From a virus, in IMG/VR virus record IMGVR_UViG_3300017949_000083, positions 1-21,110 of that record: DNA of 21,110 nucleotides; one strand, 5' to 3'. Shown here one piece after another: positions 4,981 to 20,179 of this stretch; position 1 is the stretch's first letter; each line of letters starts with the position of its first letter. A program made the translations under genes and the position numbers. The notes below the pieces were generated by a model. The model had not been told where the DNA came from, searched no databases, and saw only the letters and a list, made by a program, of their open reading frames with translations.

Positions 4981-6765
4981 TTATTTTCGTATGGTATAGA
5001 TTTTTACAGGCTCTGACTTACCTTTGACAGTTACCTCGTCAAGAAATTCGTAGTCATAACCATCTACTAAACTGTACTCGGATATAATTAAATCTGCGTC
5101 ATATTCTTTACAACTAGACTCTAGTCTAGCGGCTAGATTGACACTATCACCAAGGACACTGTAATCAAAACGAGTACTACTGCCAAAGTTTCCGACGACA
5201 CAGTCTCCCGTGTTGATGCCCGCTCCTGTATTAATTTGATCCAGGCCTTCTTCTGCGAGTCTTTCATTCAATTCTCCCAATGCCACTCTCATTTCGAGAG
5301 CTGCCTTTGTTGCATTTTCAACATGATTCTCGTCTGGACATGGCGCACCCCAAAATGCCATGATGCAATCTCCCATATATTTATCTATTGTTCCTCCATG
5401 CTTGAGAATAATCTCAGTCTGATTGTCAAGAAAACGATTAATCAGAGTAGTAAGTCCTTGTGGATTCTTCTGGTATTTTTCCGAGATCGGGGTAAATCCT
5501 CGAATATCCGAAAAAAGAAAAGTGAGTCGTGAAGTTAACCCACCCAATCTCAGTAAACTTGGGTCTTCTTGTAATTTTTTCACTAAGTCTGGACTTACGT
5601 ATGTCCCGAATTGTTGTTTGATTCGAAGTTTCTGACGATACTCGGATAAGAAACTCAGGAATGTATGAATACTCCAAAACAAAATGGAGATAATTACGAT
5701 TCCGCTGACGTCAAACAAATAAGAAGATTGATAACTATACCAGGCTCCATATAGTGACCCACCTACTATTAATATTAAAGTAGGTACGGAATACCAAATA
5801 GACCTTGATGCGATTGCAATAAGTAGTAATGCAAATAATCCTCCTGCCAGCTCAGCTCCAAGAGACCAAGTAGGGGTAGAAGGAGCACTACCAGTAATAA
5901 GATTATGTAAAATGTTTGCTTGTATTTCATGTGGGTATTTAGCCCCCGCAGGGGTCGGCACAGGGTTTGTTATACCCTCTGCAGTCGTGCCGAATATAAC
6001 AAAGGGAGCTTGTATAGGATTTTCCATAAACTCCAGTCCTGTTTGTTTGTAAAATTTTGTATTCCAGTTTAAAAAGATACGACCATTCGCATCTGTATTC
6101 ATTAAAGGGTAACTAGGGACTCTAACCCATTGCACGCCTTCTGGTGTTGTTTTTAGCTGGTACGAAGGATCGTCTACTGCGACTCTTAAGAGTTCCAAGG
6201 CGAAACTCGGGTAAAGTTTTGACTGCACGTTTACGACTAGGGGAATACGACGCGTAACCCCGTCTATTTCCGGCGTAGCGGTTACTAGCCCTAGTCCCTT
6301 TGCGTTTAACGCCAGCGTAGGTTCTGTAGGTAAAATTCCTGGATATTCGAATAGCCATGGTAATGGGTCCTCCCCTAACTGAGCAGTGCCTACATGAGGA
6401 TTTGTCCCAGTTACTTGTGTCGATGCTGCTGAAGCAAGGACTGTTGGTTTGTAAGGCAATCTGAGTACAAAATACGCATCTTGCTGTGCTCCTCGGATAT
6501 CTGGATTTGGCATAAGCACTGTAATTCCAGATATTCCAGAGGTTTCTGTGATTAAGTCTCCATAAACACTTCTTGGTAATGGCCAACCTCCGTTATTTTT
6601 TATAAAGTCTTCATCTAAATCAACTATTAATATGTTTTCATTTTGCACTGGTTCGGTATTCATAATCAAATAGTCGTAACCAATTAGTTCGAGTCTTTGC
6701 ATGATACCTGGATTCCAGATTAGGATTCCCATAAATATTGTTATTGTTATTATCTTCTGATACAT
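4981..6765 (-). CDS. CHASE2-domain adenylate cyclase (class III)
   Basis: 594 residues. Order: N-terminal membrane anchor; extracytoplasmic CHASE2 sensor (about residues 20-300, with IVDLDEDFIKNNGGWPLPRS and the closing FVIFGTTAEG); three membrane spans (about 300-380); cytoplasmic class III cyclase (about 405-594). Catalytic residues appear complete: metal Asp420 in FSDIRGFT and Asp466 in GDCIMAFWG, purine-selecting Lys462 (TIDKYMGD) and Asp534 (FDYS), transition-state Asn543 and Arg547 (VNLAAR). Lys plus Asp predicts cAMP rather than cGMP. A whole receptor cyclase is remarkable in a phage. It ends the csgF-csgG-curlin-FecR block, overlapping its upstream neighbour by 16 bases, so envelope sensing may be linked to the exported fibre system (inference). 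Confidence 0.93.
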   Translation of the reverse strand: MYQKIITITIFMGILIWNPGIMQRLELIGYDYLIMNTEPVQNENILIVDLDEDFIKNNGGWPLPRSVYGDLITETSGISGITVLMPNPDIRGAQQDAYFVLRLPYKPTVLASAASTQVTGTNPHVGTAQLGEDPLPWLFEYPGILPTEPTLALNAKGLGLVTATPEIDGVTRRIPLVVNVQSKLYPSFALELLRVAVDDPSYQLKTTPEGVQWVRVPSYPLMNTDANGRIFLNWNTKFYKQTGLEFMENPIQAPFVIFGTTAEGITNPVPTPAGAKYPHEIQANILHNLITGSAPSTPTWSLGAELAGGLFALLLIAIASRSIWYSVPTLILIVGGSLYGAWYSYQSSYLFDVSGIVIISILFWSIHTFLSFLSEYRQKLRIKQQFGTYVSPDLVKKLQEDPSLLRLGGLTSRLTFLFSDIRGFTPISEKYQKNPQGLTTLINRFLDNQTEIILKHGGTIDKYMGDCIMAFWGAPCPDENHVENATKAALEMRVALGELNERLAEEGLDQINTGAGINTGDCVVGNFGSSTRFDYSVLGDSVNLAARLESSCKEYDADLIISEYSLVDGYDYEFLDEVTVKGKSEPVKIYTIRK

Positions 6766-7193
6766 CTTTTGTGCGCTCTATCCCATACTTTGTAATTATT
6801 GTGAACAACGGTTGCCATCATTATGTTTATCCATTCCATATCATATTCTGTAATCACTCCTTCTCCTGGTAGAAGATAAAAAGGATTTAAAAATATAGTC
6901 TTGTGAGTAACCATTTGCCCAATACTTGGGTTACTTCCTAAAAATGGATTTATTTCACGAACACAGTCGTACTTAAGTCCACGATATGTGCTATAAACAT
7001 CGAGTGTTTGTAAAGTCCAGAAAGTGACATACTGACCTGTTGTAGCTTCATTATGCCATTCTAAATCTTTGAATATTTTTCTTTCTTCTTCATACGCTCT
7101 TATCAGGGCTGCATCTGCCTCAACCTGAGCCTTGTCGTATGCTAATAATGACATCGGCGCCACTGCCAATGACAACATTATAACTTTTACCAT
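6750..7193 (-). CDS. Exported protein, DUF5658-like
   Basis: 147 residues from ATG at 7193. The start is chosen because it gives a clean signal peptide (MVKVIMLSLAVAPMSLLA, cleavage likely before YDKAQ); a longer frame opens at 7229. The mature part has a helical Glu-rich start and then FWTLQTLDVYSTYRGL, INPFLG and hydrophobic stretches. This is reminiscent of small DUF5658-type proteins, though the match is from memory. It overlaps FecR by 74 bases and the cyclase by 16. Function unknown; location and export suggest it serves the curli/FecR/cyclase module. Confidence 0.7.
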   Translation of the reverse strand: MVKVIMLSLAVAPMSLLAYDKAQVEADAALIRAYEEERKIFKDLEWHNEATTGQYVTFWTLQTLDVYSTYRGLKYDCVREINPFLGSNPSIGQMVTHKTIFLNPFYLLPGEGVITEYDMEWINIMMATVVHNNYKVWDRAHKRCIRR

Positions 7194-8223
7194 CTTGCTC
7201 GAGTATGATATTATATCCAGTTTGTCCATTTATATCTAGCCTAACACTTTGATTTACTTGACGCATTATAGTGAGAAACTCTGCGTCACCAAATGTAGTG
7301 ATTTGTGTAGAGGAATCTTGTCCGAAAGTAGTGCCTTTTATATCTACTGGCGCGATGCCAACAGATGCTAATTCTTCTGAATCTAATTCGTCTATTTTTT
7401 CTATGACTTCTAACAGGTCTTCTAAAAAGTCTCCTGCTAGATAATCTATATCTAATTCATTAAAAGAGAAATCTTCTTCTAATAAATCCATGTCGAGCTC
7501 TCCGTAATCGAGAGCGTCGAAATCAAGAAGACCATCGATAGTATTACTACTTCCATTTTCTCCTTCAGTTTGTTCCAATTTTTCATTTTTCTTCGGTGGT
7601 GATACAATCAAAAGATTGTCTATCAAGTCTAGTGATAAATCCAGGATAACAGGTTTAGTAGGACTCTGTTCCCATACGGTAGTTACAGTAGATTGATACG
7701 GTTTGTTTAATGTTACCTGACCTAAGGCAGTTGCTACTACAATCTCGCCAGAGGGCAGTCCGTCAGCGTCTGGTAAGAGTATCACTAATGACTTACCGAA
7801 TTCATCAACGGTAACAGTAAAGTCTGTTCCTCGAATTGCAATTTGTGAAGTTGGTGTACTGATATTGATATTTTGTTTATTTATCTGTCCTATCTTACCA
7901 GTAATAAATCGAGCAGTACCACTTGCAAACTGCATATTCATTTTTGACTTGTTTGGATTCGGGTCAAAAATTACTTCATCAATTATTAGTTTACTATGCT
8001 CTGTGAGTCGAACTTGACTATCGTCTATAAATGTTATACCAAGTCGCCCATTAGCTGTTCGTACATCATCCATTTGTTGAATGTCTTGTTCTAAAGTTGC
8101 AGGAAAGGTGTCATCACGAATGACAGCACCTTGCCCGCGTAGTTCTGTAATGCTTCCTATATCAGCATGAAGTGGTAGAACCACCATCATTCTGAACAAC
8201 ACAAATATTGCTGTTTGACGCAT
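7120..8223 (-). CDS. FecR-domain periplasmic protein
   Basis: 367 residues. Signal peptide (MRQTAIFVLFRMMVVLPLHA), then a FecR-type region at about residues 20-170: DIGSITELRGQGAVIR, DVRTANGRLGITFIDDSQVRLTEHSKL, a beta-rich core and ISTPTSQIAIRGTDFTVTVDE, which is the diagnostic RGT segment. A long acidic Asp/Glu/Leu-rich linker (about 220-290) follows. The C-terminus has a Q-x-G/N-rich beta segment resembling a degenerate curlin unit. FecR-domain proteins are periplasmic sensors or scaffolds; here no sigma factor is nearby, so classical FecI signalling is unlikely. ATG at 8223 is used; GTG at 8226 is possible. It overlaps the curlin-repeat gene by 62 bases. Confidence 0.85.
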   Translation of the reverse strand: MRQTAIFVLFRMMVVLPLHADIGSITELRGQGAVIRDDTFPATLEQDIQQMDDVRTANGRLGITFIDDSQVRLTEHSKLIIDEVIFDPNPNKSKMNMQFASGTARFITGKIGQINKQNINISTPTSQIAIRGTDFTVTVDEFGKSLVILLPDADGLPSGEIVVATALGQVTLNKPYQSTVTTVWEQSPTKPVILDLSLDLIDNLLIVSPPKKNEKLEQTEGENGSSNTIDGLLDFDALDYGELDMDLLEEDFSFNELDIDYLAGDFLEDLLEVIEKIDELDSEELASVGIAPVDIKGTTFGQDSSTQITTFGDAEFLTIMRQVNQSVRLDINGQTGYNIILEQDGKSYNVVIGSGADVIISIRQGSG

Positions 8224-8875
8224 CACTTTCTATTTTAAGCCAATCAAGTGCAAGTGTAGAGGTTTGCTCTATACTTAAAGTATTTGTACCGCCATTTAAG
8301 TCTAAGTAAAAATACCCACCGTCGCTTGATGAAGCTCCATATCCTGACTTAGTTAAAGTCATTGTATTACTATCCCCAAAGATATCTATATATGCTGTAT
8401 AATAGTCGGAATCTATGTCAAATGTAAAATCATTACTATCGCCATCTAGTATGAAGTCTAAATCTAAATAACTTGCTCCACTCACTTGTGCGATGTCCCA
8501 ATCAAAAGTATTTGAACTACCTGTAATATCAAAATTGATATCTGCAAAGTCTGCTGTGTTTAGACCTGTAGTATCCATAGAAAATTCAAACTCATTACTG
8601 TCTCCATTAAATTCAAAGTAGCCAGTAAAATTATCGCCAAATATTCCATCAGTTAGAAATTTATTTGAAGACCCAATTTGATTTATATCAAATGTCCATG
8701 TACCCCCATTTAATACAGCTGCTGTCATCGTTCCTGACACTGCGTCTGTACCTCCAATAAGGTTGCTAGACCCAAGCTGCTCAATATCAATATTTACATT
8801 GTTACCTGTTTGGTCTATATAAATTTCATTGTCTGCCATTAATCCAAAGGATAGTAGTAAAAGTAATATTCTCAT
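8162..8875 (-). CDS. Secreted curlin-like repeat protein
   Basis: 237 residues. Very short signal peptide (MRILLLLLSFGLMA), then repeats with the curlin spacing Q-x-G-x-x-N: IDQTGNNVNIDIEQLGSSN near residue 20, INQIGSSN, then more divergent GDSNEFEF, TGSSNTFDWDI, DGDSNDFTFDI and GDSNTMTL. About seven units of around 22-30 residues give an Asp/Asn/Ser-rich beta-solenoid or amyloid-like fibre subunit, and the C-terminus holds two Cys. It follows csgG with a TAATG overlap and GGGGAGAAGTA as ribosome binding site. CsgA/CsgB analogue is the natural reading; substitution of Asp for many Gln is unlike Escherichia CsgA. Alternative: another phage adhesin. Confidence 0.8.
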   Translation of the reverse strand: MRILLLLLSFGLMADNEIYIDQTGNNVNIDIEQLGSSNLIGGTDAVSGTMTAAVLNGGTWTFDINQIGSSNKFLTDGIFGDNFTGYFEFNGDSNEFEFSMDTTGLNTADFADINFDITGSSNTFDWDIAQVSGASYLDLDFILDGDSNDFTFDIDSDYYTAYIDIFGDSNTMTLTKSGYGASSSDGGYFYLDLNGGTNTLSIEQTSTLALDWLKIESDASNSNICVVQNDGGSTTSC

Positions 8876-9741
8876 TACTTCTCTCCCCAGTACTTCCAGT
8901 ACCCTTTCTCTTTGCCTTCTGTAATCAATTGTACTACTGCAGTTTCCATTGCTGCTTGTACAGCTATAGATTTGCTCTCGTTCATTGCATTTCCGCTTTC
9001 AAACTCTACGAGTTTTGTGCCTTCTGCTACAAAACGAAAAAAGTCATTTGATACTCCAACAGAGAGTATTTTCTTTGATGTAAGGATTTCCATTAAGATC
9101 TCTCCTGTGCTCACAGAAACTAGCCTTAATGAGACCACTACGGTATCCTCACGATATTGCTTGGAATTACCGATGCCTAAATACCTAGCACCCATACCTC
9201 CAGTTAATAAATTAGTGTTATAATCCACTATACCCCCTTCAATGATTAGACCCGCAAACAGTAGTGGAAGCTGCTCGTCATCGTCATTAAAACTTTGTCT
9301 AGTCTGTCTAATTAATTGTCTTTCTCTGGTTAGATGGTCTAATCCAGTTCTTTCTACAACTTTGAAAAAGCCAGACTGTTTGAGTGCTCGAATGAGATAT
9401 GTTTCAGGAGCCATAGTAACGGCAGTACTAAAACTAGCTATACCATCAACACTCTTTCTTTGTCCTGTTGAATCTGTAAACTTATATACGGCCACCACAG
9501 GATATCGTGACGGCATTGGAACATTTTGAATTGCATCTGTAACTGGTTTTTCGACGACAGCGTCCCCAGAAAAGCATTGCGCTTTCCCAATAATGCTTAT
9601 AACATCTTTATAGTCGCCGTCTGGATTTGTTACACAAGGTGACACATAATTATAATGTGTCCAATTTGCACAACTACCCAGTAGGAAAACCGAAATCGCC
9701 AATAGGGATTGTGATTGTAGTTGTCTCACCAGTTGCCTCAT
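8875..9741 (-). CDS. csgG: CsgG, curli secretion channel lipoprotein
   Basis: 288 residues, the usual CsgG length. Lipobox LGSC with acylated Cys24. CsgG landmarks: VVAVYKFTDSTGQRK, the SFSTAVTMAPETYLIRAL segment, a FFKVVERTGLDHLTRERQLIRQ stretch, LLFAGLIIEGGIVDYNTN, and the transmembrane-hairpin region TGGMGARYLGIGNSKQYREDTVVVSLRLVSV. It forms the outer-membrane nonameric pore for curli subunits in known systems. GTG at 9729 with GAGG upstream is a possible alternative start. The gene overlaps csgF by 68 bases and precedes the curlin-repeat gene, so channel, chaperone and substrate are encoded together. Confidence 0.95.
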   Translation of the reverse strand: MRQLVRQLQSQSLLAISVFLLGSCANWTHYNYVSPCVTNPDGDYKDVISIIGKAQCFSGDAVVEKPVTDAIQNVPMPSRYPVVAVYKFTDSTGQRKSVDGIASFSTAVTMAPETYLIRALKQSGFFKVVERTGLDHLTRERQLIRQTRQSFNDDDEQLPLLFAGLIIEGGIVDYNTNLLTGGMGARYLGIGNSKQYREDTVVVSLRLVSVSTGEILMEILTSKKILSVGVSNDFFRFVAEGTKLVEFESGNAMNESKSIAVQAAMETAVVQLITEGKEKGYWKYWGEK

Positions 9742-10159
9742 TAAATATGGTCATAGTTATTGATATTCCATCACTAGTCCAAGTAATTAAATTATCAAAT
9801 AACAAAAATGATCCGCTCGTAGCAGGGTTTTCTCCAAACAGCTGGTCTACCAACTGACGAGATAACTGTGCATACACTCTACTTTCAAAGTTTTTAATAA
9901 ATCTTGCGAGAGTACTATTTTGTTCCTCTCTTTCTGCAGCTTCTTTTAATGCTTTTATTTCTGCAGCAATTGCATCTTTTCTTGACATCTCTTGTGAGTC
10001 AATAGTGAGATAGTGGCTAGATGTACCTACACCACTAAATGAAGGATTTTTAAATCCAAATTTAATTTCATCGGCTTGTAATTGATTGCCAAGTATAGTA
10101 CCTAATAAAAGTACTACGAGTAACTCTGGCCACCAATGTTTACTTTCGCTTCTTTTCAT
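9674..10159 (-). CDS. csgF: CsgF, curli assembly factor
   Basis: 161 residues. Signal sequence (WWPELLVVLLLGTILGNQLQA), and a mature N-terminus FGFKNPSFSG (about residues 34-43), the conserved segment that in Escherichia CsgF inserts into the CsgG pore and forms a second constriction. The rest fits CsgF: SRVYAQLSRQLVDQLFG, then GSFLLFDNLITW and a C-terminal beta region with TGETTTITIPIG. It directly precedes and overlaps csgG, as expected for partners. In bacteria CsgF anchors the nucleator at the cell surface. High confidence. Confidence 0.93.
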   Translation of the reverse strand: MKRSESKHWWPELLVVLLLGTILGNQLQADEIKFGFKNPSFSGVGTSSHYLTIDSQEMSRKDAIAAEIKALKEAAEREEQNSTLARFIKNFESRVYAQLSRQLVDQLFGENPATSGSFLLFDNLITWTSDGISITMTIFNEATGETTTITIPIGDFGFPTG

Positions 10160-14329: not shown

Positions 14330-14506
14330 ATGGCTGATAATAAAAAAGAGGGATTTAGCAAATTAACTAAATCTGCAATGCAAACTGAGATTAACAAAGC
14401 AACAGGTTTAAAACTGTCGGCACTCGACAGGGCTAACGCTGATGACATTGTTAAACTTGCTCAATACTTAACATCTAAGGGTGTGAAAATTGAGGGGGTT
14501 AAATAA
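14330..14506 (+). CDS. Small protein with L-x-RANA-type helical domain
   Basis: 58 residues from ATG at 14330, chosen because AAGGGGCTAATT lies before it (a longer frame from 14285 runs through the terminator stem). Its core, KSAMQTEINKATGLKLSALDRANADDIVKL, resembles the core of the minus-strand gene at 16681-16836 and the C-terminal part of the gene at 17876-18187: E/Leu-rich helix, short loop, then L-x-R/K-A-N/G and a second helix ending in K/R-L. It may be a small protein-protein or nucleic-acid-binding module used three times in this phage. Confidence 0.65.
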   Translation: MADNKKEGFSKLTKSAMQTEINKATGLKLSALDRANADDIVKLAQYLTSKGVKIEGVK

Positions 14507-15363
14507 TGGTTAATACTCATAACCACACAGGCACTATTGCCTGTGTGGTCGATACTGAATGTACCTATATATCCAAGAATCCTAGAATGGTTTTTCATTT
14601 TGGGGCAACGATTGGGGATATAGAGCAAGAGAACTCTTTTCGTGTAATCAAAATGGACTACTACGTTAAAGAGGTAATGCAAAACATAGAGATGTTTTTA
14701 CATAGAAACAAAGAGGGGGAAGCCTATGGCTATAACTCATCTATGAGAAACGCTTTGCATGACGCTTTTGACAATTTCCATAAGGTTAAGAAATGGAAAG
14801 AAATTGTTGAGGAATGGCAAGACTATATGCACTCTATGAATGTTAAATATTTAACTTCTTATAATTTCAATTTTGATATTGGAACAGGCGACAAGGTAGG
14901 AACTATCAGAAAGACACATCAACAACTGACTGATAAGACTTTCTACTTGCCAAGAGGGGTTGACTATTTTTGCCTTATGGATATTGCAGGAACTATGTTT
15001 ATGAATCGAAACTATAGAAATTTTATTCAAGGTTTAGATGAAATAGACATACAACAAATGCGAACTGACAAGGGCAATCCTAAATATTCGGCTGAAGCCT
15101 GTATGCGATACTTAAATAAAGATGTTTATTTTCAAGAACAACATACAGCTTTGAGAGATTCACTTTTAGAATTTCGTTTACTTGCTCACTTTTGGAAAAG
15201 GTGGAAACCAAACATCAAAAGAGATTTTGTAAACAATGTTCGAGGTGTATCACTAAAGAATATTAAAGAGGGTGTATCTGTTGCCAAGCGACTAGAACAA
15301 AGACGTGGCAAGGTATCAGACACGCCAACACAAATTGAATTAGCACTACAAGGGGGTAAATAA
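14506..15363 (+). CDS. DnaQ-like DEDDh 3'-5' exonuclease
   Basis: 285 residues. Exo I motif DTECT (Asp16, Glu18), Exo II motif YNFNFDIG (Asn120, Asp124) and Exo III H-x4-D in EQHTALRDSLLEF (His213, Asp218) give the DEDDh set for two-metal hydrolysis of DNA or RNA ends. It may serve proofreading, recombination or host nucleic-acid turnover; no polymerase domain is fused. The ATG overlaps the stop of the upstream gene (TAATGG). A perfect 12-bp hairpin lies at codons 6-15 and could act as a translational operator. Confidence 0.85.
   Translation: MVNTHNHTGTIACVVDTECTYISKNPRMVFHFGATIGDIEQENSFRVIKMDYYVKEVMQNIEMFLHRNKEGEAYGYNSSMRNALHDAFDNFHKVKKWKEIVEEWQDYMHSMNVKYLTSYNFNFDIGTGDKVGTIRKTHQQLTDKTFYLPRGVDYFCLMDIAGTMFMNRNYRNFIQGLDEIDIQQMRTDKGNPKYSAEACMRYLNKDVYFQEQHTALRDSLLEFRLLAHFWKRWKPNIKRDFVNNVRGVSLKNIKEGVSVAKRLEQRRGKVSDTPTQIELALQGGK
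14522..14549 (+). promoter_or_regulatory. Strong hairpin inside the start of the exonuclease gene
   Basis: ACCACACAGGCA pairs perfectly with TGCCTGTGTGGT, loop CTAT, 16 bases after the start codon. Such a stable stem is rare at this position and is not followed by a U run. A role in translation control is inference. Confidence 0.6.
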
Positions 15364-17875: not shown

Positions 17876-18187
17876 ATGGCAAACGCAAAAAATTATACAG
17901 ACGAGATGGTTGCACAAATGACTGCAGCATACACAGAAAACCCTACAAGGGAAACAGTAGACGAACTTGCTTCTACACTTGGCAAAACAACAAGAAGTAT
18001 CATAGCAAAGTTATCAAGAGAAGGTGTTTACATTGCTCAACCTAGAACAACTAAATCTGGCGAACCAGTAGTTGCTAAAGCAGAGTTAGTGTCAACAATT
18101 CAAGAACACTTCGGTATCGAACTTCCTACTCTTGTCAAAGCAGGTAAGCAAGACCTACAAAGATTGGTTGACGCAATCGCTCAGTAA
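17876..18187 (+). CDS. Small phage protein with HTH-like N-terminus
   Basis: 103 residues from ATG at 17876, after GGGAGAAAAAAGAAA. The N-terminal part (YTDEMVAQMTAAYTENPTRETVDELASTLGKTTRSIIAKLSREG) is a helix-turn-helix-like unit common in marine phage proteins as I recall; the C-terminal KAELVSTIQEHFGIELPTLVKAGKQDLQRLVDAI matches the module of the genes at 14330 and 16681. An ATG at 17774 with its own AAAGGAG site gives a 137-residue form read through promoter R3. Message continues into the tRNA-like RNA and tRNA-Glu. A DNA-binding regulator is plausible. Confidence 0.8.
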   Translation: MANAKNYTDEMVAQMTAAYTENPTRETVDELASTLGKTTRSIIAKLSREGVYIAQPRTTKSGEPVVAKAELVSTIQEHFGIELPTLVKAGKQDLQRLVDAIAQ

Positions 18188-18331: not shown

Positions 18332-18406
18332 GCTCCGTTCGTCTAGTGGTTAGGACACATGGTTTTCATCCATGCAACAGCAGTTCGACTCTGCTACGGA
18401 GTACCA
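18332..18406 (+). tRNA. tRNA-Glu (anticodon UUC)
   Basis: 75 bases including encoded CCA. Acceptor GCTCCGT/ACGGAGT (first pair G-U), D-arm GTCT-GGAC, anticodon stem CATGG/CCATG with loop TTTTCAT (anticodon TTC), T-arm AGCAG-TTCGACT-CTGCT, discriminator A. All four arms fold normally. It reads GAA codons, common in this A+T-rich phage. Confidence 0.95.
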
Positions 18407-18433: not shown

Positions 18434-18462
18434 TTGACAAAAGTGAAAAAAGTGGGTATAAT
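18434..18462 (+). promoter_or_regulatory. Rightward promoter R4
   Basis: TTGACA-17 bp-TATAAT with the upstream box GAAAATAATTCACATTTCTT. Initial transcript begins like that of R5 (TATATTCAAAAAAG). Confidence 0.88.
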
Positions 18463-18468
18463 ATATTT

Positions 18469-18660
18469 ATATTCAAAAAAGGGAAAAACGCAAAGGAAAT
18501 CAACGCGAACAGAACCACCGACCGAGATTTTATCATCAACTGAGTGGGAAAGCAACGAGGAACTTTCAACACACCCATTTGGGTTGAGTGTCAGGAGTGA
18601 TAACAGACCAATTTGATGGTAGCAACACTAGATTAACTGTTCACTCAACCCCACCTTCGA
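18469..18660 (+). ncRNA. Small structured RNA of about 190 nt
   Basis: A promoter with no credible gene after it. The 3' half folds into a long hairpin: GGGTTGAGTG (18581-18590) with CACTCAACCC (18642-18651), perfect 10 bp, then AACAG/CTGTT and ACCA/TGGT stacked inside with one-sided bulges. A rival stem ACCC/GGGT (18573-18584, loop ATTT) would break the main helix, so two states are possible. A short frame crosses the 5' part but has no ribosome binding site. No terminator is visible before R5. Confidence 0.6.
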
Positions 18661-18681
18661 GAAAATAATTCAAAATTTTTC

Positions 18682-18710
18682 TTGACAAGAGGTTAAACAT
18701 TGGGTATAAT
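18682..18710 (+). promoter_or_regulatory. Rightward promoter R5, for the giant RNA
   Basis: TTGACA-17 bp-TATAAT, preceded by GAGAAAATAATTCAAAATTTTT as at R4. Start of transcription expected near 18717. Confidence 0.88.
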
Positions 18711-18716
18711 ATACTT

Positions 18717-19743
18717 ATATTCAAAAAAGAAAGAATGACAACCAACGCAACATTATTCGGCACAAAGGAATAATTACGGAATGGCACTCGCCCAGAAAAG
18801 GAGTCGCCAAGTGAGGCATCACATAAAATATCGCCGTATGCTTTTTATACATTGTAAGGGCGCGTTAAGGAGAGCAATGTACGTCGGTTTGATACTCGTA
18901 TACAGAGATATTTCACGCAAGAAAAGTGAGTGTATACCCGATTAACTGGTCGGTTAAAAAGTGGAGCAACTACCCTTATCAGTAATTCCAAACCTGAGTG
19001 TTCGCACAGATGGTCCACTGGTGGTAAGTAGCGTAGCGGAGTCGCCCCTTCAGCACTGTGTCGACAGTATAAAACCTTGAGGATTAGTGTAAATTACACA
19101 AGTAAAACAGTAAATTACACAGTGATTGACGCCAGATGCGACTATAACATCAGGTAGAGTGACGAAACCACGCTTTGTGAGTTCATACCAGTAATTCAGA
19201 GGAAGCATTGCTTATAATCTGACGAGGAGTTCCACATAAATAGAAAACGCGGCGAATGTAACGAGAGCATAGTCTTGGGGCGATTCAGTTTTAACTGTCA
19301 AACCAAGCACCTTATCGTGAAACACTATTAATTAAACTTCAGTGTGCGAGTAATTTGAACTACCATAAGAACGGCAAATTACCATCAAGTAATGAGAGCA
19401 TAGGTTGAACGAAGCAAGTAGCATAAGGAGGGGAAAGAAGTTTACATCTTAGGTCATCGCCCATGATAGATGTAGTAGGAACTTCATGCTTAACTGCGAA
19501 GAGAGAACCCACACAGACGCCTTCGGGAGCAGAGTAGTAGGGACATTGGGGGCAGTAAGCAACTTAGTAGTAAAGAGAGGGAAGCGTATATACGACAAAT
19601 CACATCAACCCTGATACTACAATGCTGTGACAGGTGTGTCATAAAATGCCGAGACACCACAGTGGTTAAACAAAAACTCAAAAACGTTTTGGGGAGTAAG
19701 GAAGCAACACAACTTTAGCGTGGCATGCCTTACTCCCTTTTTT
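18717..19743 (+). ncRNA. Giant ornate non-coding RNA, about 1.03 kb
   Basis: Bounded by promoter R5 and a perfect terminator, with no credible reading frame in either strand. Dense stems seen by eye include ATTATTC/GAATAAT (18752-18774), TACATTG/CAATGTA (about 18847-18891), AGTGGA/TCCACT (18960-19018) enclosing GTG-TTCG-CAC, ACTGT-GTCG-ACAGT, TCAGA/TCTGA enclosing AAGC/GCTT, CTTGG/CCAAG, GTAATTTG/CAAATTAC (19350-19382), ACATCT/AGATGT enclosing TCAT/ATGA, GTAGTA-GGG/CCC-TGA-TACTAC (about 19535-19620) and CTGTG/CACAG enclosing GTGTC/GACAC. Size, tRNA proximity and phage context recall GOLLD and ROOL RNAs. No homology was tested; a new class is possible. Confidence 0.75.
19692..19743 (+). terminator. 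Terminator of the giant RNA
   Basis: GGGAGTAAGG (19692-19701) pairs perfectly with CCTTACTCCC (19728-19737), followed by six T. The 26-base loop is long and may itself fold (GC-rich GTGGCATGCC). Confidence 0.85.
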
Positions 19744-19825: not shown

Positions 19826-19867
19826 ATATGTATCAAAAGAAAAAGGAAACCACATTTTCCTAGATTA

Positions 19868-19929
19868 ATGAGTGTGGCGTCCCCAAACGGAGATTGGGCA
19901 GTGGAGTATGAGACAGACTCCACACTTAT
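19868..19929 (+). promoter_or_regulatory. Three-way-junction leader RNA element
   Basis: ATGAGTGT pairs with ACACTTAT (8 bp, one G-U), closing two hairpins: CCCAA/TTGGG (19882-19898) and GGAGT/ACTCC (19903-19921). It ends 31 bases before the ATG at 19961 and just before the AGGAGGT site. Could be a cis-regulatory element; no ribozyme or known riboswitch core recognised. Confidence 0.5.
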
Positions 19930-19960
19930 ATTAACAATTTTATTTACAGGAGGTGGCACA

Positions 19961-20179
19961 ATGCCAGCAAAATTTAAACCATCACAAAAAGTTTATAAGA
20001 GAGGTGTTCCAGCATCACAACTGCCAGTGCAACACTTTTACTTAAAAAATACACCAAAAGAGGAGTTATTCGCTGAGATTAACAAATCAAGTGTAAAACC
20101 GAAGCAAAGACAAAAGTGTCTAAACGAACTCGTTAGACGAGGCATCAAGGTACAGTGGGTATCTAAGGAGAGTGTGTAA
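19961..20179 (+). CDS. Small basic protein
   Basis: 72 residues from ATG at 19961, chosen for AGGAGGTGGCACA before it; the open frame does extend back to 19868 through the leader hairpins. Basic, with SKxxLPVQHFYLKNTPKEELFAEIN-like middle and LNELVRRGIKVQWVSKESV at the end, perhaps two helices and a strand. First gene of the R6 operon. No family recognised. Confidence 0.7.
   Translation: MPAKFKPSQKVYKRGVPASQLPVQHFYLKNTPKEELFAEINKSSVKPKQRQKCLNELVRRGIKVQWVSKESV

Follow-up and report, generated by a model that had tools for sequence, protein, structure and literature searches.

We describe a ~1.03-kb unit in a 21,110-nt stretch of DNA (here called the window) from an uncultured marine phage, for which the best overall explanation is likely a new family of large phage noncoding RNA. 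Comparison of relatives shows a fixed-locus, ORF-less unit of ~0.6–1.5 kb with a conserved predicted σ70 promoter and terminator and with selection on its plus-strand structure. The RNA ranks with the largest giant phage RNAs in size, shows strong covariation and occurs in scores of marine phage contigs. It resembles large structured phage noncoding RNAs in being ORF-less, longer than 500 nt and phage-encoded, and in having a structure supported by covariation; this term denotes a functional kind and does not imply common ancestry.

An ORF-less unit at a fixed locus

The large structured RNA spans 18717–19743 (coordinates refer to the plus strand of the window unless noted), as judged by the alignment of relatives, covariation and indel evidence. 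Its promoter, P2 (TTGACA-17-TATAAT, 18682–18710), matches the σ70 consensus at 12 of 12 positions and has a predicted start at ~18717. The intrinsic terminator (19692–19743) consists of a 10-bp stem (19692–19701/19728–19737) with a 26-nt loop, followed by T6; a consensus scanner missed it, as it allows loops of no more than 8. The original prediction had proposed a 1.03-kb unit with this perfect promoter and terminator and without a plausible gene, and both proposals were confirmed. Between pairs of relatives, indel lengths were multiples of three in just 15 of 103 cases, so that a reading frame is not kept, and no long ORF recurred among relatives of the large RNA; together, these results argue that the region is noncoding.

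The window contains seven perfect σ70 promoters, against ~0.007 expected per strand from base composition, which suggests that this is the repeatedly used, standard early-type promoter of the phage. P1 (18434–18462), also a perfect consensus and absent from the original prediction, lies in tandem upstream of P2 and is followed by a leader (18463–18681; 248 nt when counted from 18434 to 18681) without a terminator ahead of P2. Two transcripts are therefore possible, with the leader being either a separate RNA or an alternative extension at the 5′ end.

A long cis-acting leader that controls the downstream 72-aa gene would explain why the unit always lies directly 5′ of this gene on the same strand. 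However, the terminator closes the unit, and the gene has its own perfect-consensus promoter, P3 (19797–19825), ~85 nt beyond, hence we regard a leader as quite improbable. Because of this terminator and the separate promoter of the next gene, the large RNA would instead work in trans, and a structured trans-acting RNA family is very likely. The 5′ UTR of the 72-aa gene itself (19826–19960) contains several short inverted repeats, for example GUGGAGU/ACUCCAC, and might be a cis-regulatory leader.

Two marker genes flank the locus: upstream, an HTH-type gene (17876–18187) with a weak match to a D5-like transcriptional regulator PHROG, and downstream, a gene for a basic 72-aa protein of no known family (19961–20179). 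Relatives were drawn from IMG/VR by means of the HTH-type and 72-aa proteins (80 of 134 and 80 of 111 places kept, respectively). Both flanking genes were present at 136 loci, which collapsed at ~95% identity to 68 regions; in these ~68 non-redundant contigs, from one uncultured marine phage group, the unit lies between the HTH-type and the 72-aa genes. A promoter-to-terminator unit was delimited in 61 of the 68 regions (615–1539 nt, median 983); as these units were chosen by a T-run before the next promoter, the presence of a terminator in them is partly by construction. The equivalent of P2 in the 61 relatives has TTGACA in 50, TATAAT in 58 and a 17-nt spacer in 60, and local similarity links all 61 large RNAs. 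Long contigs each carry at most one convincing copy of the large RNA, at this locus, and searches with module-sequence patterns found the HTH-type and/or the 72-aa gene beside the unit in 17 of the 17 contigs examined.

There was no meaningful DNA match to the region among 50,697 phage records of cultured phages and none in plasmids, and neither of two MAG contigs matched in a host search had a match to an RNA model. A literature search, which covered few preprints and subscription papers, found no description of this RNA. The 72-aa gene occurs without the large RNA in other phages (L236); its protein gave a confident fold model with no informative structural match and no recognisable RNA-binding fold. 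Most phages of the group also have a second HTH-type paralogue (~40–53% amino acid identity) 3′ of the 72-aa gene (L155, L152, L158 and others).

As for the phage itself, positions 4981–10159 of the window (minus strand) encode CsgF, CsgG, a curlin-like protein, a FecR-domain protein and a CHASE2-adenylate cyclase. The curli secretion and CHASE2-cyclase genes are closest to those of Pelagibacter phage HTVC008M and the Methylophilales phages Melnitz (36–49% amino acid identity), and the curli/cyclase operon resembles the one in these phages; the HTVC008M annotation has no comparably large gap. The proteins encoded by a 105-kb relative include a DnaB-like helicase, a PolI-type polymerase and a major head protein whose PHROG matches are of protease type.

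Covariation and the 5′ domain

The prediction that the unit is a structured RNA was borne out by covariation, not by the stems that had been picked by eye. The minimum free energy of the large RNA (−247.2) is at the level expected by chance (mean of dinucleotide shuffles −246.3, z = −0.09), and the folding z of eight relatives ranged from +0.3 to −2.2. With z near zero, stems found by eye or by single-sequence folding are not evidence, and thermodynamic stability was rejected as proof of structure. Elsewhere in the window, a coding stretch (14506–15363) is far stabler than its dinucleotide shuffles, with z = −7.3, and z is −2.7 and −4.6 in adjoining stretches, compared with the −0.09 of the large RNA.

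Covarying pairs among homologues, set beforehand as one half of the test on which the prediction was to stand or fall, were found. Using our own R-scape-like G-test with APC and a phylogeny-preserving null, applied to the 5′ part (alignable well in 26 members), we examined 124,750 pairs, of which four reached E ≤ 0.05; all were 96–100% Watson-Crick, as were six of six at E ≤ 0.2. One of them (18850–18879, E = 0.013, 100% Watson-Crick) lies in a helix around UACAUUG/CAAUGUA (18848–18882), and another (19058–19065, E = 0.0013) in the hairpin ACUGU-GUCG-ACAGU (19054–19068). A lone covarying pair, 18979–19030 (E = 0.008), falls outside any clean helix in the window and was left out of the argument.

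A conserved 5′ subdomain of 149 nt (18809–18957) was captured in a covariance model, R1, which scores it at 141 bits and matched 38 loci, all but one at E < 2e-7. Its predicted structure comprises a hairpin (18811–18814/18819–18822) and helices at 18835–18837/18862–18864, 18841–18843/18856–18858, 18898–18904/18931–18937, 18911–18913/18922–18924 and 18938–18942/18949–18953. In the alignment of the 38 loci, 98.6% of cells are paired, compared with 73% after shuffling, and covariation reaches 0.644, compared with 0.193 in shuffles (0 of 500); slid controls do not exceed 0.11. Both sides had changed in 22 of 25 pairs (0 of 500 shuffles) in this alignment, which was fitted to the structure and so leans towards it; in an unfitted alignment, double changes occurred in 18 of 25. 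We take the structure of the large RNA to be real, and covariation rather than stability to be its proof.

Because G-U pairs outnumber A-C mismatches 63:1 in R1, selection acts on the plus-strand RNA and not on DNA. This ratio bears on a DNA element, such as a replication origin or a packaging or recombination site, with hairpins that act as DNA. Such an element would account for a region that is noncoding, conserved and recombinogenic, but the strand bias, together with the conserved promoter and terminator, is an RNA-level signature, and this explanation is highly improbable.

By model matching, the 5′ domain comes in at least two types: 29 members without the R1 subdomain have another 5′ domain, and the pseudoknot and modules described below are common to most of them.

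Pseudoknot core and hairpin modules

A small predicted H-type pseudoknot (19118–19158, 41 nt) is the core common to almost all members, in which an AGU pairs with an ACU in the loop of a GCC-A-GAU/AUC-A-GGU hairpin. The pseudoknot model, R2, matched 65 places at E < 0.003, corresponding to 64 loci (L107 twice), plus 18 loci in a second set. Covariation of the pseudoknot was 0.262, compared with 0.086 in shuffles (0 of 500), and extended across both 5′-domain types; the outer pair of its loop helix, for example, is C-G in 26 cases, G-C in 25 and A-U in 10.

The rest of the RNA, as far as alignment and flank comparison can tell, is a mosaic of hairpins that present fixed loops in unrelated yet complementary stems. 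We compared the pairing of each module's own left and right flanks with that of flanks recombined across members. Module M1, AACUACCAUAAGAACGG in a variable stem (19350–19382), had 17 distinct flank pairs with a mean stem of 6.29 bp, compared with 1.85 in the control, and stems of at least 4 bp in 94% of cases, compared with 10%. For module M2, GAGGAAGC..GCUUAUAAUC in a variable stem (19195–19222), 13 distinct flank pairs gave a mean of 3.92 bp against 1.58 bp in the cross-paired control. Module M4, CUUGG-GGCGAUUCAG-UUUUA-CUGUCAAA-CCAAG (19274–19307), has an inner stem that covaries (CAGC/GCUG, CAGU/ACUG); its outer stem was not shown by the flank test. Hairpin M8, GUG-NNGAAAC-CAC (19159–19171), is present in 26 of 68 regions, and near the 3′ end lies a hairpin GGUGU..AUAAAAUGCCGA..ACACC (19627–19662), the stem of which, on inspection by eye, is replaced by other complementary sequences in L007, L030, L034 and L099. 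The modules are not fixed in their order either, with 30 orders among 61 distinct RNAs. M4, for example, lies 5′ or 3′ of the pseudoknot depending on the phage, and the order counts are 6:5 for M1/M2, 6:9 for M2/M4, 35:14 for pseudoknot/M4 and 5:15 for pseudoknot/M5.

Module M5 (AUAACARACCAAUUU..UGGUAGCAA) occurs both inside and outside the large RNA. Twenty-one flank pairs gave a mean stem of 5.90 bp, compared with 1.93 in the control. The M5 of the window belongs to the P1 leader (18594–18629), where a 10-bp stem, GGGUUGAGUG/CACUCAACCC (18581–18651), encloses it; in L007, L008, L042, L068, L091 and L147, it is part of the large RNA itself. In other phages, M5 is found alone in 5′ UTRs, including those of an Hsp20 gene and a UDP-glucose-dehydrogenase-like gene (L168:4239, L176:7074–7100 on the minus strand, L180:9760 and 11 other loci), and the hsp20-associated M5 is positioned close behind a late-type TATAAATA sequence. 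Its presence outside the large RNA suggests that M5 is an autonomous unit. A search of 84,980 bacterial and archaeal species genomes found no M5, and stand-alone M5 had no Rfam match. The hsp20 and sugar-gene context had raised the idea that M5 is a wcaG RNA; cmscan did not support it.

A possible role as a hub

On the strength of its consensus promoter, we propose that the large RNA would be transcribed strongly and early by the host polymerase. The core would fold as a stable body, and the modules may be autonomous docking sites for whose display a stem is enough. The leading candidate for the role of such an RNA is a multivalent hub, which would collect or titrate either an RNA-binding partner, from the phage or the host, or further copies of the RNA; we consider this docking mechanism plausible rather than probable.

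GOLLD forms a homo-14-mer nanocage, and both GOLLD and ROOL self-assemble into homo-oligomeric particles. The large RNA might likewise form a cage or ring, with its hairpin loops as intermolecular contacts, given that it is of the same size class, comes from phages and is rich in conserved loops. Moreover, the conserved and variable halves of GOLLD (PMC12286853) parallel the core and modules here. A closed symmetric particle needs a fixed geometry, however, whereas the order of the modules, the length of the stems and the overall length (615–1539 nt) all vary widely, and model searches found no homology to GOLLD or ROOL. We therefore consider a particle of this kind rather unlikely; a multivalent hub agrees better than a rigid cage with the free order, the free stems and stand-alone M5.

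A fuller version of the hub proposal is possible but speculative: a domain-shuffled RNA, in which autonomous modules are re-ordered around a pseudoknot core and swapped with the mRNA 5′ UTRs of other phages, and dock in a hub for host takeover. Equally, spacer hairpins under loose constraint could tolerate such shuffling of order. If domain shuffling is the explanation, a large functional RNA would be evolving as modular proteins do. The shuffled modules constitute a natural experiment, with M5 already standing alone before identifiable genes, and a modular RNA would provide a documented case of domain shuffling in a large RNA and offer a concrete route to the purpose of giant phage RNAs.

Relation to known large RNAs

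To our knowledge, only a few families of giant phage RNA have been described, none with an established function. The original prediction had left the choice between a divergent GOLLD and a new class. The second alternative stood, as a new class of large structured, covarying phage noncoding RNA, and the first fell, since the GOLLD model matches no better than chance. Size and phage location would suggest divergent membership of a known large RNA family (GOLLD, ROOL, OLE, HEARO or a group I/II intron). However, scanning the window and 18 relatives against all of Rfam at gathering thresholds returned tRNAs only, a comparison of the region with Rfam at E ≤ 10 gave nothing beyond sub-threshold chance matches, and the recommended Infernal check with the GOLLD (RF02032) and ROOL (RF03087) models gave nothing above chance in the window and five long relatives. 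Membership of a known family is thus very unlikely indeed.

The adjacent tRNA, which had been taken as a lead, proved uninformative. The tRNA-Glu(UUC) of the window (18332–18406) is an incidental neighbour; ARAGORN places a tRNA-Glu close to the RNA in no members other than the window group, L010, L011 and L091, and a frequent or embedded tRNA neighbour, which is a GOLLD trait, is not a feature of the group. In L026, a sub-threshold tRNA match (525–603; 26.7 bits, cut-off 29) lies near the place of tRNA-Glu in the window and is possibly a decayed tRNA gene.

The ICP1 RNA between gp139 and gp140 is an ~800-nt ORF-less RNA of a lytic phage and the most abundant ICP1 transcript (PMC7567579). Like the RNA described here, it is a large ORF-less phage transcript, and it sits in a ~1 kb gap. 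The best R2 match to it has an E-value of 0.49, and R1 gave one weak 13-bit match over the ICP1 terminator, which we read as spurious. With no credible R1 or R2 match, kinship with the ICP1 RNA was rejected. The ICP1 RNA itself (L194:20098–21108, minus strand) has no Rfam gathering match and is probably another undescribed large phage RNA.

OLE and raiA are, similarly, large ornate bacterial RNAs of uncertain function, but they are not from phages, and the window has no Rfam match to them. ROOL is of the same size class, phage-associated and ornate; its model left the window and five long relatives unmatched at E ≤ 10 (0 of 7 records), as it did the control genomes. GOLLD, which sometimes lies beside tRNAs, is likewise a large ORF-less structured RNA of phages and prophages with a conserved half and a variable half (PMC12286853). 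Here, however, its model gave one 5.8-bit chance match (cut-off 150) in six contigs of the group, the pseudoknot and modules are unrelated to it by model search, their order is permuted and a tRNA neighbour is rare. Because the GOLLD, ROOL and ICP1 comparisons found no kinship and tRNA proximity is rare, we assign the large RNA, on present comparative evidence, to a new family of a known kind, distinct from GOLLD and with an unusual modular architecture.
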